Shown piece by piece: positions 2,126 to 10,443 of a stretch of DNA of 10,443 bases. Within the stretch, counting starts at the first letter, position 1, and each line of letters opens with the position of its first letter. Source of the stretch: Muribaculaceae bacterium (GTDB lineage Bacteria; Bacteroidota; Bacteroidia; Bacteroidales; Muribaculaceae). A program made the translations under genes and the position numbers. Under the pieces are notes generated by a model. The model had not been told where the DNA came from, did not search any database, and saw nothing but the letters and a program-made list of their open reading frames with translations. The stretch covers positions 1 through 10,443 of the forward strand of contig JAKSMA010000066.1 in assembly GCA_024400895.1 (NCBI GenBank). Reading direction: 5' to 3'.

Positions 2126-5100
2126 GTGGAAATAAGAGAATTATGTAATATTTTCAACAACAAGACTCGCCTCGCAGCTATCATGAAATTGTTAACTGCG
2201 AAGCGTAATCGTGTTGTTTCGGTTGATGGACTTGCCGGTTCGTCGGCCGCCATGCTATTTGCACGCCTCCCAAAACTCGATGCGCCATATCTGATTATTG
2301 CCAACGACCTTGATGAGGCGGGCTACATCTACAACGACCTTTGCCAAATCAATGGCGAGGACTCTACACTCATCTTCCCATCGGGCTACAAACGCGACAT
2401 CAAATATGGGCAGATTGACGCACCGAGCGAGATTCTCCGCACCGAGGTGCTCAACCAATGGTATGGCAATCCCAACCTTCAGTGCGTGGTCACCTATCCT
2501 GAAGCACTTGCCGAGAAAGTGGCTGCCAAGGAGGTAATCGACGATAGCACCATCTCGCTCACTGTGGGTGCGGAAGTGGACTTGATCAACACCAGCGCAC
2601 GACTACGCGACTTTGGTTTCCAGATGGTGGACTATGTCTACGAGCCTGGTCAGTTCTCCATTCGCGGCTCCATTCTCGATGTGTTCTCCTACAGCAACGA
2701 GTTGCCCTACCGTATCGACTTTTTCGGCGATGAAATCGACAGTATTCGCACTTTCAATGTGGAAACGCAACTCAGTGCAGAGAAACTGCAAAGCATTTCC
2801 ATTCTCAACAACAATGCCGAGGCGGCAAGCGTGGGCACCTCGCTCTTAGGTTACATCCAACCCGAAACATGGCTCATTTGCCGCAACTCGGAATGGCTCA
2901 TTACACGCATCAAAGCCATCGGTGAAGAGAGCATGTCGTCGAGTGCTTTAGTGTCGGAAAACTGCGATTCCAACGCATTGGATAAAATCGTTGATTTCGC
3001 CCAATTCATCGCAGATTTTGGCAATTTTCGCCGTCTTGAATTTCACGCATCAGAAAACCAGGATGCATGCGACGCACGCATTGCGTTTTCTTTCACCCCT
3101 CAAGGCATCTACCACAAGAATTTTGACCTCATCAGTGGCTCGTTCAAAGATTTCATCGCCAAAGGCTACAAAATCTATATCCTCAGCGACAGCGAGAAGC
3201 AAACCGCGCGCCTTCGCGTGATTTTCGACGACCGCAACGACGACATCCCGTTCATCCCGGTAAATAGCACCATACACGAGGGCTTCGTCGACGACGAGCA
3301 GAAGATTTGTGTGTTCACCGACCACCAAATTTTCGACCGATTCCACCGCTATAGCCTCAAGAGCGAACGCGCCCGCTCGGGAAAGCTCGCCTTGTCGCTT
3401 AAGGAACTGAATCAAATCGAAGTGGGCGACTACATCGTGCACGAAGACCATGGCATTGGCAAGTTTGGCGGACTTGTACGCAACCGTGCCAATGGCACAC
3501 TGCAAGAGATGATTAAACTCATTTATCAGAATGGCGACATCATTTTCTGCTCTATCCATGCCCTGCACAAACTCTCAAAATACCGCGGCAAGGAGGGCGT
3601 TGAACCCAAATTGAGCAAACTTGGCGGTGGTGCTTGGAACAAGATTAAAAATCGCACAAAGAGCAAGCTCAAAGACATTGCCCGCGATTTGATTAAACTC
3701 TACGCAAAACGCCGAGAATCGGTAGGATTCGCCTATTCACCCGACGGCTATCTGCAACAGGAATTGGAGGCTTCGTTCATCTATGAAGACACCCCCGACC
3801 AACTCAAAGCCACACAGGCCGTGAAGGCTGACATGGAGCGCAACCGTCCTATGGACCGCCTGGTGTGTGGCGATGTGGGCTTCGGGAAAACCGAAGTTGC
3901 CATTCGCGCGGCATTCAAGGCTGCCACAGATGGCAAGCAAGTGGCTGTACTTGTGCCTACCACAGTGCTTGCCTTTCAACATTACAACACCTTCAGCGAG
4001 CGACTGAAAGATTTCCCTGTGAGGGTCGACTACCTTACACGTGCACGCAAACCGAAAGAGGTGAAAGAATTGTTGGCCGACTTGGCCGACGGCAAAATCG
4101 ACATTCTCATAGGCACACACAAACTCATCGGAAAATCCGTAAAATTCCGCGATCTCGGCCTATTGGTCGTGGACGAAGAACAGAAGTTTGGCGTGAGCGT
4201 GAAAGAAAAGTTGAAGGAAATGAAGACCAATGTGGACACGCTCACAATGAGCGCAACTCCTATCCCTCGCACCCTGCAGTTCTCTCTGATGGGCGCACGC
4301 GATTTGAGTGCCATCACCACCCCACCAGCCAACCGCTACCCTATTCTCACATCGGTCAAACCGCTTGACGACGACATTGTGATGGAGGCCATCAACTTCG
4401 AACTTTCGCGCAACGGTCAGGTATTTTTCGTGAACAACCGCATTGACCAACTCCCCATTCTCGAAAATATGATTCACCGCCTTGTGCCTGATGCTCGCGT
4501 GGTGGTTGGCCACGGACAGATGAGCCCGGAAGAGTTGGAGAGGCGCATCATCGACTTCACCAACCACGACTACGATGTGCTCCTTGCCACCACCATCATA
4601 GAAAGTGGCATCGACATGCCGAATGTGAACACCATCATCATCAACAACGCACAGAACTATGGTCTGAGCGACTTGCACCAGTTGCGCGGCCGCGTTGGGC
4701 GCAGCAACCGCAAGGCTTTCTGCTATCTGACCATTCCACCCGAGCGCCCTCTCACCCCTGTGGCGATGCGCCGCCTCAATGCCATTGAAAGTTTCAGCGA
4801 CTTGGGCTCGGGCATTCAAATTGCGATGCAAGACCTCGACATTCGCGGTGCCGGCAACCTACTCGGAGCGGAGCAAAGTGGCTTCATTGCCGACCTCGGT
4901 TACGAAACCTATCAGAAGATTTTGAAGGAGGCTGTGCTTGAACTGAAAACGCAGGAATTCGCCGATACTTTCGAAGCACAAGAGTCGGAAGAATCGCAGA
5001 TTTCCGGATACGAGGTCACTTATGTAAACGACTGCAACATCGACACCGACCTCGAACTTTTCTTCCCTCCAAGTTATGTACCGCAGGAGAGTGAACGCAT

Positions 5101-5488
5101 CACGCTATATCGCGAACTCGACAACATGGAAACCGAAAAAGAGGTGGATGAATTCGAAGCAAGAATGCGCGACCGCTTCGGCCCGATTCCCGACATCGCC
5201 GCCGAGCTCATTCGCATCGTGCCTATGCGCCGCATAGCCCGCACACTCGGTGTGGAGAAAGTGGCACTCAAGCAAGGCAAGCTCTTCCTCTACTTCGTGG
5301 GCAAGGAAAATGCTGCCTACTACCACTCCAATGCCTTCGGACGATGCTTGGCTTATTTGCAGAGCGACCCAATTCGCTGCAAAATGCGAGAAGTGAACGA
5401 CCGTTGCAGTTTTGTGATTTCCAACATCAAAACTGTGAGCGAGGCATTGGCCATCTTCAAACAAATAGCCGCCATGCCTTCCGTATAA
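2126..5488 (+). CDS. mfd: Transcription-repair coupling factor Mfd
   Basis: Mfd is an ATP-driven DNA translocase that removes RNA polymerase stalled at DNA damage and recruits UvrA for nucleotide excision repair. The protein has 1120 residues, the usual full length. The N-terminal UvrB-like module covers about 1-350 and includes YVYEPGQFSIRGSILDVFS near 169-187. The RNA-polymerase-interacting (CarD-like) domain begins at EVGDYIVHEDHGIGKF, about 432. The helicase motor has Walker A GDVGFGKT (582-589), Walker B DEEQ (683-686), SATPIPRT, TTIIESGIDMPNVN, and motif VI QLRGRVGR (852-859). The TRG translocation motif (RGAGNLLG) lies near 907, and the Mfd C-terminal domain at about 975-1090. Translation probably starts at GTG 2126, because the preceding residues EIRELCNIF fit the family; an in-frame ATG follows 19 codons later. 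It could be transcribed with the protease, though the hairpin-forming gap argues for partial separation. Confidence 0.97.
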   Translation: MEIRELCNIFNNKTRLAAIMKLLTAKRNRVVSVDGLAGSSAAMLFARLPKLDAPYLIIANDLDEAGYIYNDLCQINGEDSTLIFPSGYKRDIKYGQIDAPSEILRTEVLNQWYGNPNLQCVVTYPEALAEKVAAKEVIDDSTISLTVGAEVDLINTSARLRDFGFQMVDYVYEPGQFSIRGSILDVFSYSNELPYRIDFFGDEIDSIRTFNVETQLSAEKLQSISILNNNAEAASVGTSLLGYIQPETWLICRNSEWLITRIKAIGEESMSSSALVSENCDSNALDKIVDFAQFIADFGNFRRLEFHASENQDACDARIAFSFTPQGIYHKNFDLISGSFKDFIAKGYKIYILSDSEKQTARLRVIFDDRNDDIPFIPVNSTIHEGFVDDEQKICVFTDHQIFDRFHRYSLKSERARSGKLALSLKELNQIEVGDYIVHEDHGIGKFGGLVRNRANGTLQEMIKLIYQNGDIIFCSIHALHKLSKYRGKEGVEPKLSKLGGGAWNKIKNRTKSKLKDIARDLIKLYAKRRESVGFAYSPDGYLQQELEASFIYEDTPDQLKATQAVKADMERNRPMDRLVCGDVGFGKTEVAIRAAFKAATDGKQVAVLVPTTVLAFQHYNTFSERLKDFPVRVDYLTRARKPKEVKELLADLADGKIDILIGTHKLIGKSVKFRDLGLLVVDEEQKFGVSVKEKLKEMKTNVDTLTMSATPIPRTLQFSLMGARDLSAITTPPANRYPILTSVKPLDDDIVMEAINFELSRNGQVFFVNNRIDQLPILENMIHRLVPDARVVVGHGQMSPEELERRIIDFTNHDYDVLLATTIIESGIDMPNVNTIIINNAQNYGLSDLHQLRGRVGRSNRKAFCYLTIPPERPLTPVAMRRLNAIESFSDLGSGIQIAMQDLDIRGAGNLLGAEQSGFIADLGYETYQKILKEAVLELKTQEFADTFEAQESEESQISGYEVTYVNDCNIDTDLELFFPPSYVPQESERITLYRELDNMETEKEVDEFEARMRDRFGPIPDIAAELIRIVPMRRIARTLGVEKVALKQGKLFLYFVGKENAAYYHSNAFGRCLAYLQSDPIRCKMREVNDRCSFVISNIKTVSEALAIFKQIAAMPSV

Positions 5489-5763: not shown

Positions 5764-7221
5764 ATGAAAAAAATATTTAATTTCTCTCCTCTGTTTGTGG
5801 CGGGCATGCTCGCCATTGGCCTGTTACTTTCCAGTTGTGGCAAAGACGCGCTGCAAAAGGCTGTGAAAGACGCGTTTATCAAAGGTGACACCACCGAAGT
5901 TGCTTACGAAGCGATATGCGATATCATCACAAGCAACGCTGAAAAATACAGCGACTATGTCGACACCAACGGCAACATCAATGTCGACGCCCTCGACCAG
6001 ATGATCAACGAGGTGGGCCAAAACTTGCGTCCACCAATGACATGGAACACCAAGCGCTATGGCCAGAAATCACTCTCGCTCAGCATCTATTTCGAGCGTA
6101 GCGGCTCGATGGTGCCTTACGACCAGGCTTCGGGTGGCGGACAACTCAAAAAGGCGGTGAACGACCTTATCAATTTCTTCCCTGGTGGAGAAAATGCAAG
6201 CATCAACATCGTGAACGACAACATCTATCCCTATAACGGCACGGTGGAATCGTTTTTGCAAGACCGCGACATCTACGCATCCACCAAAGGTGTGGGCGAT
6301 GCTTCGTACACCGATTTCAAGGTGATTTTCGACAAGATTTTCCAAGCGCAGAAACCCGGAAATGTGGCTGTGCTCATCACCGACCTCATCTATTCGCCCA
6401 AGAACACCGCAGGTGTGAGCGTGGACAAGATTTTCAACGAAGAAAACAGCCTTGCCACCTCCATCTTCACCAAGTATAAGGGCAAATCCATCATCGTGAA
6501 TCAGCTCCGTGGCGACTACGACGGTCAATACTACCCCTACAATGGGCAGCCTTTCCAATATAAAGGACAGCGCCCTTTCTACGCCATCATTATCGCCGAC
6601 GCTTCAACCATCGACCGCATGGCTAAAGACAACCGATTCGCCAACTTCCTGAATCTTTCGGGCACAATCAACAGTTACCGATTCAATCAAGCCAACACCA
6701 CGCTCGACTATAAATTGGTGCCCGTGTGGAACAACAACGCTGGTCGTTGCCGCGAAAGTCGCGACCAGAAGGGCCTGATTACCAATTGTGAAGCCGACCG
6801 CGAAACTGGCATCCTCGCATTCAGCGTAGCAGTCAACTTCAACGGCCTGCAGAAAGATGACGCATTCCTCAGCAACCCTTCCAACTTCACCCTTCAGTCG
6901 CAAAACGGCTTCACCGTGAAAGTTGAGAAAATCGACCCTTCTGCCATCACAGGCAACAACAAGGCATATCTTGAAGGAATGACCCACGTGCTCACCTTCA
7001 CAGGTAAACTCGGCACAGCAAAAGACGAAATCACCGTGAATTTGCGCAACGATTTCCCTGCATGGATTGAGCAATCCACCAGCCGCGACGATTCAAGCGC
7101 CTCTGCAACAGGATTCGCCACCACCACTTTCGGCCTCGAGCGATTCCTCCGCGGCATTTACGACGCTTTCTCTGCATCGCAATCCAACTACACCACTATG
7201 ACTATCAAACTCGAAAAATAA
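5764..7221 (+). CDS. Lipoprotein with von Willebrand A-like domain
   Basis: This 485-residue predicted lipoprotein has a hydrophobic signal followed by lipobox LLSSC with the lipidated Cys at 25. The next residues, GKDA, form no strong surface-export signal, so it may face the periplasm. A vWA-like domain spans about 104-280. The metal-site motif appears as ERSGS (111-115), with SYTDF (Thr183) and LITDLIY (Asp207) at the usual later positions. The first residue, normally Asp, is Glu. A Cys329/Cys342 pair might form a disulfide. The C-terminal part (about 350-485) looks rich in beta strands and ends in a FGLERFLRGIYDAF segment. It starts a closely spaced operon with a membrane protein and an FtsZ/tubulin-like protein. 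This suggests a role at the envelope, perhaps as a metal-dependent adhesion or scaffold partner. The exact function is unknown. Confidence 0.85.
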   Translation: MKKIFNFSPLFVAGMLAIGLLLSSCGKDALQKAVKDAFIKGDTTEVAYEAICDIITSNAEKYSDYVDTNGNINVDALDQMINEVGQNLRPPMTWNTKRYGQKSLSLSIYFERSGSMVPYDQASGGGQLKKAVNDLINFFPGGENASINIVNDNIYPYNGTVESFLQDRDIYASTKGVGDASYTDFKVIFDKIFQAQKPGNVAVLITDLIYSPKNTAGVSVDKIFNEENSLATSIFTKYKGKSIIVNQLRGDYDGQYYPYNGQPFQYKGQRPFYAIIIADASTIDRMAKDNRFANFLNLSGTINSYRFNQANTTLDYKLVPVWNNNAGRCRESRDQKGLITNCEADRETGILAFSVAVNFNGLQKDDAFLSNPSNFTLQSQNGFTVKVEKIDPSAITGNNKAYLEGMTHVLTFTGKLGTAKDEITVNLRNDFPAWIEQSTSRDDSSASATGFATTTFGLERFLRGIYDAFSASQSNYTTMTIKLEK

Positions 7222-7233
7222 CGACAAAACAAT

Positions 7234-7680
7234 ATGGACAAAAAAGGTATTTATCTCATCACGGGCATCGTGGCCACAGTGCTTTTCTGGGTTTTCCGTG
7301 TAGAAGTGTACGAAGGGCTCTTCCAAGCACCTGGCTTTAGCGATGCCATGTACAACACCGGCATCTACGGCATCGTGGGCCTCATTACCGCCGCCATGGC
7401 ATGGGGCGCAGCAGCCATTTTCTACTATGCCATCAACTCAGTGCAATTCTGCCGCTGGTGGCACTGGCTTTGCATTCTCGCCATCGTCACCATCATGGCG
7501 CCCATCGTGTGCTACTTCGTGAACTCCAGTATTTTCGATTCAGAGAACTATTCCTACGCAGCCGAAATGGTTTCGTTTGAAGGTGTAAACATGATTTTCA
7601 CTGCAGTTCTCTATGTGGTGGCATCGTTCTCCATCCGCTGGTGGAGCACCAACTGCCGTCACACTCCATTCCCACAGTAA
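7234..7680 (+). CDS. Small four-helix inner-membrane protein, unknown function
   Basis: This 148-residue protein has four predicted membrane helices, at about 6-22, 43-67, 76-96 and 115-134. Basic residues at the N-terminus (DKK), after helix 2 (CRWWHW) and after helix 4 (RWWSTNCRH) place both ends in the cytoplasm. The repeated RWW after helices 2 and 4 hints at an internal duplication or a shared membrane-interface motif. I recognise no named family. It begins 12 bases after the lipoprotein gene and ends 28 bases before the tubulin-like gene, so it is almost certainly co-transcribed. By position it could link the periplasmic vWA lipoprotein to the cytoplasmic tubulin-like protein, but that is inference. 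The ATG at 7234 is the natural start, and no Shine-Dalgarno is present. Confidence 0.82.
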   Translation: MDKKGIYLITGIVATVLFWVFRVEVYEGLFQAPGFSDAMYNTGIYGIVGLITAAMAWGAAAIFYYAINSVQFCRWWHWLCILAIVTIMAPIVCYFVNSSIFDSENYSYAAEMVSFEGVNMIFTAVLYVVASFSIRWWSTNCRHTPFPQ

Positions 7681-7708
7681 CTAACCTCTATTAATCACAC
7701 ATATCATC

Positions 7709-9229
7709 ATGAGATTATTCATTTTCGCTATCGGCGGCACGGGCTCCAGAGTGCTCAAGTCGCTCATCATGCTCTCGGCGGCAGGCGTCAAGCCTCTCGA
7801 CGAAGACGGGCGTCCTATCCAAAACCTGGAACTGGTGCCTATCATCATCGACCCTCACAAGAGCAACGAAGATCTCAAACGCACCGAGCAGATGCTCACA
7901 GAATACTGCACCATTCGCGAGAAACTCTACGGACGCGAAGTGAATGGCGACGGATTCTTTGCAACAAAAATCAGCACGCTCCGCTCTATCATGGGCATGA
8001 CGGCAACGCCTATCAACGACACCTTCATCTTCAACATGGAGGCTGTGGGGCAGACCAAGTTCCGCCCGCTTATCAACTACGACACCATGAACGAGCCCAA
8101 CCAGGCGCTCACTTCGCTCCTTTTTGCCGACTACCAACTTGAAAACAAGATGAACATCGGCTTTGTGGGGTCGCCTAACATCGGTTCGGTGGCGCTCAAC
8201 ATGATTAAGGACAGCGAGGAATTCAAGGCTTTTGCCAATGTGTTTGGCGAGGGCGACCGCATATTTTTCATCAGCAGTATTTTCGGTGGCACCGGCGCTG
8301 CAGGCTTCCCTATTTTGGTGAAAAATATCCGCCAAGCCCACAACCTTGATGTGAGCAACAAGAATTTCTTGCGACAAGCGCCCATCGGCGGCCTTACCGT
8401 GCTCCCCTATTTCAACCTCAACAACAGTCAGGGCAAGAGTATCGACAAGGCCGACTTCGTGGTGAAAACGCAAAGCGCACTACAATACTACAACGAAACG
8501 CTCACCGGTGAAGCCGACCGTAGCGTGAACGCCATTTTCTACCTTGGCGACCAAACCTCATCGATTCCTTACGACTACGACCCTGGCAACATCCGCGACC
8601 AGCACAACCCTGCCCACTTGGTGGAAATGGTTGGCGCGATGGCAGTGCTGAAGTTTGCCGGCATGGACGAGAAGCAATTCCTCGATGGCATGGGCGGTTT
8701 CCACCCCACCAAGGCATTTGAATACGGACTCGACAAGGATTTGCTCGACGTAGACTTCACCACCTTCGGCCAGGAGACTCGTCGCCTCATCTATCGCCCG
8801 ATGGTGAAATTCCACATGCTGTTCATCTACATGCGCACCGCCCTGAAGGCTATTATCGGCCAAGGCTACACGCAAGATGAGCCCAAGATTCGCAGCGAGT
8901 TCACCACCACGCAGTTCTACCGCACCCTCGTGGACCAGTTCTTCGATTTCTACACCGAATGGCTCACCGAGATGCACGGCAACCTGCGCCATGTGGAACT
9001 CTTCAACGTGGGCGAAAACAACTTGGCGAACATCATCCACAATGTGGTTACCAAAAAGGGCTTCTTCGGTCGTAAGAACGTGGATGCCAATTCATTTAAC
9101 GCCGAGCTCAACAAATTGAGTCGCGACAACAAGAAGTACAGCGACCGCACGGTGGAATACAAGTTGCTCGACCTCTTCAACCAGGCCGCTGGCAACATTC
9201 TTGACGACAAATACGAAAACATCAATTAA
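7709..9229 (+). CDS. FtsZ/tubulin-superfamily protein (divergent tubulin-like, FtsZl type)
   Basis: This 506-residue cytoplasmic protein has the hallmarks of a tubulin-fold GTPase. It opens with a strand and glycine loop, LFIFAIGGTGSRVLKSL (GGTG at 9-12). A strand ending in Asp48 follows (VPIIIDPHKSN). The tubulin signature region is IFFISSIFGGTGAAGFPIL, with GGTGAAG at 193-199, the counterpart of the GGGTGSG phosphate loop. Strands such as LTVLPYF (229-235) and AIFYLGDQ (275-282) fit the rest of the fold. It is longer than FtsZ and has no recognisable FtsZ C-terminal peptide, so it is not the division FtsZ. Divergent families of this kind have been linked by genome context to vWA proteins and proposed to act in membrane remodelling. 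The neighbours here agree. GTP binding and polymerisation are predicted, not shown. Confidence 0.82.
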   Translation: MRLFIFAIGGTGSRVLKSLIMLSAAGVKPLDEDGRPIQNLELVPIIIDPHKSNEDLKRTEQMLTEYCTIREKLYGREVNGDGFFATKISTLRSIMGMTATPINDTFIFNMEAVGQTKFRPLINYDTMNEPNQALTSLLFADYQLENKMNIGFVGSPNIGSVALNMIKDSEEFKAFANVFGEGDRIFFISSIFGGTGAAGFPILVKNIRQAHNLDVSNKNFLRQAPIGGLTVLPYFNLNNSQGKSIDKADFVVKTQSALQYYNETLTGEADRSVNAIFYLGDQTSSIPYDYDPGNIRDQHNPAHLVEMVGAMAVLKFAGMDEKQFLDGMGGFHPTKAFEYGLDKDLLDVDFTTFGQETRRLIYRPMVKFHMLFIYMRTALKAIIGQGYTQDEPKIRSEFTTTQFYRTLVDQFFDFYTEWLTEMHGNLRHVELFNVGENNLANIIHNVVTKKGFFGRKNVDANSFNAELNKLSRDNKKYSDRTVEYKLLDLFNQAAGNILDDKYENIN

Positions 9230-9241
9230 GCCTCACACACC

Positions 9242-10443
9242 ATGAGCAAGATTCTTTCATACAACAACAAGACCACCAAAACCAGTTCGGAAGACTGGAT
9301 TGCAGTGGAACCATATAGCGACGACGACATCCGTCAAATCAAAGACCCTAATGGTGGGCTTTCTCGCAACCCTCGCACGGCTATCCCCAGCCCGTTTGCA
9401 CAACTCGACCTCGTGAAAAACGCGTTCGAGCACTTGCAACCCACGCCTCAAGGCATGGCGGGTATCGCCAGCGAGCAAATCATGGTGAGCAATGCGCTCG
9501 ACGTGGCTCAACTTTTCTTTGAATACGAAAACCACCGCGACCAGTTACACATCGTGCGCTGGAACAAGACTGCCGAACTCGAGCGACTGAAGGCTTCGCC
9601 CGAGCACCGCCTGTTTGGCGAAACGCTTGAGCTCTTCCTCCAGGCCGACCGTGTCTACAATTTTGCGCAGCTCCAAGACTGGTACATCCTGTTGCTTAAC
9701 AATCAGGTGATTGGCGCCACAAGTCCGTCGTCGTTCACGATGGCAGCACCCAATGTGGGCACCATCGACACGGTGAATGTGGAGCCTAACGTGAAACTTT
9801 TCGGCCAAATCCGCGACCTCTGGCAACGCGACGATGAATTCATCTATCATCTGTTCCTCTTGTTCAACGCGCACACGTCACTGCGCCGCTCGCTGGGCAA
9901 CGTTTACCAATATATGGTCAACAATCTGATGCTCATCCAGCGCCACAAGCCCGAACTCTACAACCGCATCATCGGCGTGATTCCTAACCCCACAGCGCTC
10001 CAAGCCGACCGCGAGCCGGTAGTTCGCCAGATGCTCGACATGCAGTTCTCGCCATTTGCTGGCGAAAATGCTGTGAGTGTGCTCAGCGCCCCTCTCTATC
10101 GCAAGAAGATGGTGGATGTGACTTCAAGCGCCGCTACCAGCGACTTCGTGATTGCGCCTACACGCGAACAGGCCGAGGGCGAATTGCTGCCGTTGGTGCT
10201 TCGCAACAATTTCAACGGCTCGGTGGACCATTACACCTACATCAACCGCGAATGGGATAGCGCTACCGAAGTGTATGCCGATGGCGTGCCTATGGACGAA
10301 CGACACTTGCCCGACACGAGCATTCTCTATCCATTCCTCACCACAGCCGACTTCTTCACCGAAAACATTATCCGACTGGGTGGCACTAGCGACGACAACC
10401 ACTACTTCGACGGCAACATTGAGCGCGCCACCGGTGCAAGCAC
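9242..10443 (+). CDS. Unrecognised protein of the tubulin-like operon, 3' end beyond window
   Basis: An uninterrupted reading frame runs from ATG 9242 to the window edge (400 codons, no stop), so only the N-terminal part is seen. It begins 12 bases after the tubulin-like gene and is surely in the same operon. There is no signal peptide or membrane helix, so it is probably cytoplasmic. It starts MSKILSYNNKTTKTSSEDW. Around 40-61 is a proline-containing stretch (RNPRTAIPSPFAQLDLVKNAF) that looks like a conserved motif. Helical, hydrophobic segments follow, such as LQDWYILLLNNQVIG and FIYHLFLLFNAHTSLRRSLGN. I do not recognise the family. Given the context, it could be an adaptor or regulator of the tubulin-like protein. 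Base composition and codon use match the neighbours. Confidence 0.85.
   Translation, partial: MSKILSYNNKTTKTSSEDWIAVEPYSDDDIRQIKDPNGGLSRNPRTAIPSPFAQLDLVKNAFEHLQPTPQGMAGIASEQIMVSNALDVAQLFFEYENHRDQLHIVRWNKTAELERLKASPEHRLFGETLELFLQADRVYNFAQLQDWYILLLNNQVIGATSPSSFTMAAPNVGTIDTVNVEPNVKLFGQIRDLWQRDDEFIYHLFLLFNAHTSLRRSLGNVYQYMVNNLMLIQRHKPELYNRIIGVIPNPTALQADREPVVRQMLDMQFSPFAGENAVSVLSAPLYRKKMVDVTSSAATSDFVIAPTREQAEGELLPLVLRNNFNGSVDHYTYINREWDSATEVYADGVPMDERHLPDTSILYPFLTTADFFTENIIRLGGTSDDNHYFDGNIERATGAS

Follow-up and report, generated by a model that had tools for sequence, protein, structure and literature searches.

Tubulin-type and actin-type proteins of bacteria have mostly been studied separately, FtsZ and FtsA of cell division being the familiar exception. 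Here we consider an operon in which genes of the two types stand next to each other, TUB for the tubulin type and ACT for the actin type, with LP, the gene of a probable lipoprotein, at its head. The operon starts in what we call the window, the whole 10,443-nucleotide contig (C225) of an uncultured Bacteroidales bacterium. FtsZl1 is among the closest of the described systems; in the parts of Makarova and Koonin (2010; PMC2875224) that deal with it, proteins of the vWA, GTPase, kinase and OmpA types are given as its partners, most other genes of its operons being lineage-specific and carrying no recognisable domains. The legend of the superfamily alignment in that paper lists Bacteroides caccae and cyanobacteria, the family of each being left unnamed. 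In the FtsZl1/Tubulin_2 arrangement described there, a diverged member of the FtsZ superfamily has a vWA protein as its neighbour, and sometimes OmpA-like proteins too; the window's locus resembles it, the neighbour here being vWA-like. It differs in that the TUB of the window falls under the Tubulin_2 cut-off and, at 506 amino acids, is without the usual long coiled-coil layout of FtsZl1, and in that no P-loop GTPase was seen in the operon. Furthermore, no operon partner resembling actin or Hsp70 emerges from the passages on actin in the main text of PMC2875224, and the word 'hsp70' does not occur in that text.

A second comparison is offered by Kaur et al. (2020; PMC7159879), whose paper on conflict systems names a class in which GTPases are combined with an HSP70 protein and homologs of tubulin; later it treats tubulin and Hsp70 as themes that do not overlap, both set around GAP1-N2. 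In the relevant passages tubulin-domain proteins occur with vWA proteins and Hsp70 is a named component of the class, as would suit our locus; however, those systems centre on a DO-GTPase, GAP1 and FNIII, whereas here tubulin- and actin-fold genes adjoin and Pfam scans show no such GTPase in the operon. The idea of joining tubulin with Hsp70 is not wholly new, but a GTPase-free tubulin-actin pair with LP does not appear in those passages of PMC7159879. Likeness to Zorya lies in ZorA- and ZorB-like genes in the operons of relatives, and likeness to Ter systems, in which TerD goes with vWA proteins, in TerD genes that follow ACT in three loci only (L123, L124 and L139); the window's operon has neither. 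As for its other elements, PMC9871819, in the part consulted, sets Tubulin_2 proteins aside as diverged, and PMC12204202 provides a useful parallel in its passages on vWA proteins coupled to TolQ-like motors. No paper on the tubulin-actin-vWA gene set was found in the open-licence literature, subscription papers being outside that search.

Results

The complete operon has seven genes, in the order LP-TM4-TUB-ACT-G5-ZR1-ZR2. Its first part lies in the window as four open reading frames in the same direction with intergenic gaps of 12, 28 and 12 bases, in agreement with a preliminary description of this DNA. The reading frames were called by a custom script that may miss small genes. The features are:

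5764..7221, plus strand: LP, 485 amino acids, probable lipoprotein with a vWA-like domain
7234..7680, plus strand: TM4, 148 amino acids, small membrane protein with four hydrophobic segments
7709..9229, plus strand: TUB, 506 amino acids, tubulin/FtsZ-superfamily GTPase-like protein
9242..10443 (contig end, reading frame open), plus strand: ACT, N-terminal part, 400 residues
5730..5737, plus strand: TAACTTTG, candidate operon promoter, read by eye as a match to the -7 element

The window breaks off inside ACT, which is the end of the contig and not of the operon. A second contig (C61, locus L133) of the same genome, which amounts to 2.18 Mb and is 67% complete, supplies 724 residues of ACT at its start, after which come G5, ZR1, ZR2 and a convergent gene. 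In a close relative (locus L005), whose TUB is 100% identical (rounded) to that of the window and whose ACT start is 89% identical in DNA, TUB is followed by a full ACT of 1149 amino acids, G5, ZR1, ZR2 and then a convergent gene, and the alignments of the two contigs on L005 stop 32 bases from each other. Because L005 continues with ACT-G5-ZR1-ZR2 and C61 supplies the rest of ACT together with G5, ZR1 and ZR2, we regard the operon as complete with seven genes. The ratio of nonsynonymous to synonymous substitution rates (dN/dS) of the window reading frames against three relatives was 0.10-0.27 in those comparisons, 11 of 12, for which dS was defined, rough values since dS exceeds 1, and the reading frames thus behave as real genes.

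The tubulin/FtsZ fold proposed for 7709-9229, one of two points on which the preliminary description had chosen to stand or fall, is well supported for the GTPase domain by both sequence and model. The protein has the glycine loops IGGTGSR and SIFGGTGA, and in the family the nucleotide loops T1 and T4 (GG.G and SxFGGTG) are invariant in 80/80 members. Around residues 344-350 a VDF-like stretch bears a likeness to T7 of FtsZ that was judged only by eye, and the helical C-terminal part is hardly covered by matches. A search of BFVD gave a phage tubulin as best match (E-value 1.6e-3). The proposed link to FtsZl1 holds for the vWA-type neighbour counted below, but the relation is distant: the window TUB scores 14.2 bits against Tubulin_2, for which the cut-off is 27. 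Tubulin_2 matches were obtained for 33/36 TUB relatives at E up to 0.1; one known carrier from the phylum draw reaches 25.7 bits, and a close relative (P0009) has a precomputed PF13809 assignment. FtsZ_C is present in 12 of the 13 congeners examined, the lone miss being the incomplete genome of the window itself, which sets TUB apart from the FtsZ of the divisome. All names shown in the annotation of relatives read 'hypothetical protein', and one TUB from cyanobacteria bears the label 'tubulin-like'.

What had been described as an unknown cytoplasmic protein is now identified as an actin/Hsp70-superfamily ATPase; the fold of its ATPase domain, which lies past the end of the window (on C61 and in L005), is again well supported by sequence and model. 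The phosphate-1 Asp and Gly are conserved in 75/75 members, as are the phosphate-2 Asp, two Gly and final Asp, and the adenosine motif has its first Gly in 75/75 and its second in 74/75. The N-terminal 575 residues of ACT, like the C-terminal part of TUB, gave no match among those tested. A resemblance to SrfB (PF07520) appears in 4/37 ACT members, with a best E of 0.011. A mirror-tree comparison gave r 0.977 over 58 loci, a value that mostly reflects shared descent, the shuffles testing random pairing only. At six loci (L115 and L118-L122) a second actin/Hsp70-like protein of ~1100 amino acids (HSP70 E 0.0026, below cut-off) and a coiled-coil-like protein are encoded directly upstream of LP.

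LP has a signal segment with a terminal cysteine, and a strict lipobox expression is satisfied by 40/54 relatives with a complete start. The preliminary description of LP as a vWA-like lipoprotein stands in part. Its segments ERSGSM, ASYTDF and LITD follow the order of the vWA metal site, and in a profile alignment (hhalign) with 20 Bat-type vWA proteins from relatives all three align, at a moderate probability of 45.6% (P 2e-4); but Glu replaces the canonical Asp of the motif. Among the other residues of the metal ion-dependent adhesion site (MIDAS, DxSxS), the first Ser is kept in 64/64 members, the second in 58/64 and the last Asp in 64/64, a second vWA-like protein, VW2, being included in these counts. 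Pfam scans of 34 LP proteins gave weak matches to vWA-TerF-like in two and to VWA_2 in one, the window LP had no vWA match in Pfam, and its PDB profile search returned a signal-peptide match only. From these sequence features we consider that LP likely carries a vWA domain. The four-helix membrane protein of the preliminary description corresponds to TM4, whose four hydrophobic segments are read from hydropathy alone.

For the neighbourhood, 97 loci chosen for spread and not at random were mapped; removal of 13 duplicates or short copies and of 5 without TUB left 79. ACT immediately follows TUB in 66 and TM4 immediately precedes it in 55, so that the conserved neighbourhood that had been predicted is found. 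In the same run as TUB (summed over run types) LP occurs in 53/79 loci, VW2 in 5 more and ACT in 72/79. The 13 loci in which ACT is not next comprise 11 with another gene, inserted in several cases, one contig edge and one broken TUB. Additional genes lie between TUB and ACT in L088, L096, L097, L100 and L102 and between TM4 and TUB in L094; by eye, some of the inserted genes look like GxxExxY proteins and one looks like an ATPase. Within the order, where 393 genomes were covered, both proteins were found in 22 (TUB at E up to 1e-3, ACT at E below 1e-50), TUB only in one (E 9.8e-4) and ACT only in one, at a contig end. At E up to 1e-3 the ACT profile matches 356/393 genomes, mostly by short matches to other actin-fold proteins.

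Outside the host genus TUB was found in 55/313 other genomes of the family; the order gave 23/393 and the phylum draw 9/296, the window's own genome being counted in the latter. A translated TUB search gave 0 matches in 50,697 phage records and 6 in 72,556 plasmid records; five of the six are cyanobacterial plasmids and the other is a Prevotella replicon, which matches over the full length at 49% identity. The Prevotella replicon (L169, NC_022111.1) is 1.77 Mb long, is filed as a plasmid and has a single annotated feature; LP, TM4, TUB, ACT and G5 are all present on it, and ZR1 is matched weakly. In the three cyanobacterial plasmids opened (L170-L172), LP (E 4e-13 to 7e-24), TUB (3e-61 to 3e-64) and ACT (2e-46 to 2e-56) are adjacent, with weaker G5 matches, LP being on the opposite strand in one; the restriction of the system to Bacteroidota in the preliminary description was thus too narrow. 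On L171 a protein annotated as having a TM2 domain (16307-17554) follows the operon, and TM2 is also found in 3/38 zinc-ribbon (ZR) proteins of Bacteroidales.

Beyond ACT the operons diverge. G5 (266 amino acids in L005) is a coiled-coil-like membrane protein with two hydrophobic segments, and in ZR1 and ZR2 a zinc ribbon is combined with a hydrophobic segment at the C-terminus. An FtsK_gamma winged helix is present in 14/38 ZR proteins (E 1.1e-11 in ZR2 of L005), and none was seen among the genes scanned, not exhaustively, from ZorAB- and TerD-type operons. ZorA-like genes occur in 17/79 runs and zinc-ribbon genes in 25/79, both together in none (again summed over run types), and a set of 69 loci had 15 with a ZorA-like and 13 with a ZorB-like gene. 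One ZorA-like protein was recognised by PADLOC as ZorA2 (E 8e-8) and one ZorB-like protein as ZorB1 (E 9e-14). The window's seven-gene operon has neither ZorA nor ZorB. Where operons contain ZorA, the genes at their ends include those of a family of trypsin-like proteases, of which one member was scanned; among ten proteins scanned, others are retropepsin-like aspartyl-protease-like (L065 and L072) or staphylococcal-nuclease-like (L074), and the remainder are DnaJ, DUF4349, DUF4357 or without clear match. A lipobox-like N-terminus is seen in the end proteins of L065, L072 and L074 and, by strict expression, in 6/16 proteins of the trypsin family. A divergent subtype (L123, L124 and L139) consists of VW2, a membrane protein of 111-113 amino acids, TUB, an ACT of 1300 amino acids, an uncharacterised protein and 2-3 TerD genes; L139 also encodes an OmpA protein.

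As for the upstream side, TAACTTTG matches what we take to be the -7 promoter element of Bacteroidota, and by eye no convincing -33 element was seen at the usual spacing from it. Further upstream and outside the operon, an S41-type protease (327-2045) and Mfd (2126-5488, GTG start) were recognised by eye. In L108-L110 and L114 a tyrosine-recombinase-like gene, also read by eye, stands just upstream of the operon, which suggests a mobile island at these loci.

Discussion

Sequence and model establish the fold of TUB and that of the ATPase domain of ACT, and the conserved nucleotide motifs as well as the gene order and its conservation are likewise shown; what the operon does has to be considered more tentatively. 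We favour, with a probability of roughly 0.43, the scenario in which the seven genes encode a trans-envelope nucleoside triphosphatase (NTPase) module for envelope surveillance or conflict, responding perhaps to phage entry or a breach of the envelope. Our best guess, by analogy, is that such a module would work like the Zorya or Ter systems while being a member of neither. LP would be placed on the periplasmic side, sensing something in the envelope; TM4 and G5 would cross the inner membrane and relay the LP signal; and TUB and ACT, on the cytoplasmic side, would switch or polymerise with GTP and ATP. That these proteins form one physical trans-envelope assembly we infer. The output would be set by exchangeable, lineage-specific downstream genes: ZorA/ZorB-like proton-channel proteins in many relatives, where they are frequently accompanied by lipoprotein-like proteases or by a nuclease, TerD in a few, and, in the host genus, zinc-ribbon proteins with a membrane segment, some of them with FtsK-gamma. 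It is because ZorAB, TerD, proteases and nuclease are swapped downstream that we lean toward conflict.

A number of observations weigh against this scenario. TUB is present in 83 of the 84 sampled congeners (own genome included), and the operon of the host genus is without a hydrolase, both of which fit a core cellular role. In keeping with that role, TUB distances follow those of the housekeeping gene Mfd (r 0.90 over 45 pairs of 10 genomes, kept from 15 after five were lost to a motif filter). PADLOC returned no match, up to an E of 1, for any of the four window proteins, and the full ACT reached only E 0.017. The first MIDAS position of LP is Glu in 48/64 members, the window LP among them, and Asp in 16/64 (VW2 included). 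Lastly, in three of the 22 order genomes (G035, G036 and G326) TUB and ACT were found on separate contigs, so the two need not be neighbours.

The alternative that survives best, possible if doubtful in our view, follows the idea put forward for FtsZl1 by Makarova and Koonin: TUB and ACT would shape the membrane or envelope as a core cytoskeletal or remodelling machine of the genus, with LP as a structural partner, and the hydrolase-bearing relatives would be side branches. The housekeeping reading arises because the operon is near-universal in one genus in which it has none of these hydrolases; purifying selection, the tracking of Mfd and the presence of FtsZ_C beside TUB, which makes TUB distinct from the divisome FtsZ, all agree with it. 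However, TUB is patchy outside the genus and plasmid-borne in cyanobacteria, and the downstream genes are swapped, proteases and nuclease among them. Moreover, among 15 congeners the flanks (up to 5 kb, several shortened) share a protein in 7/105 genome pairs for the operon vs 38/105 for Mfd, the one control gene. Because TUB distances follow Mfd while the operon flanks are rarely shared, the operon looks vertically inherited within the genus yet relocating.

We think it improbable that the operon serves DNA anchoring or segregation, with the FtsK-gamma winged helix of a membrane-anchored zinc-ribbon protein tying DNA to the membrane. Tubulin- and actin-fold proteins do serve plasmid segregation, TubZ and ParM being the examples, and the frequency of FtsK_gamma among ZR proteins as well as the plasmid location in cyanobacteria would suit this role; but LP and G5 point to the envelope, the winged helix was not seen in the ZorAB- and TerD-type genes scanned, and plasmids and phages account for just the six TUB matches given above. 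Equally hard to credit is a branch of the GTPase-centred conflict systems built on GAP1-N2 with tubulin, Hsp70 and vWA components: the class named by Kaur et al. (2020) does join TRAFAC GTPases, tubulin homologs and an HSP70 protein, with vWA proteins beside tubulins, but its detailed section calls the tubulin and Hsp70 themes non-overlapping and centred on DO-GTPase and GAP1, and Pfam scans of the seven operon genes found no DO-GTPase-type GTPase, no GAP1 search having been made.

Returning to the surveillance or conflict module, a broader proposal, which we hold to be rather unlikely, would see here a widespread and unnamed tubulin-type plus actin-type trans-envelope machine. In some lineages this machine would be linked to a Zor-like motor driven by protons as well as to proteases or nucleases of the envelope, and the whole would represent a new class of immune or stress system located in the envelope. 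The exchange of partners among ZorAB, TerD, protease, nuclease and zinc-ribbon proteins makes the question of conflict versus housekeeping directly testable. The operon, which occurs in Bacteroidota as well as on plasmids of cyanobacteria and for the most part lacks annotation, would offer a small, testable system for tubulin- and actin-type proteins acting across a membrane.

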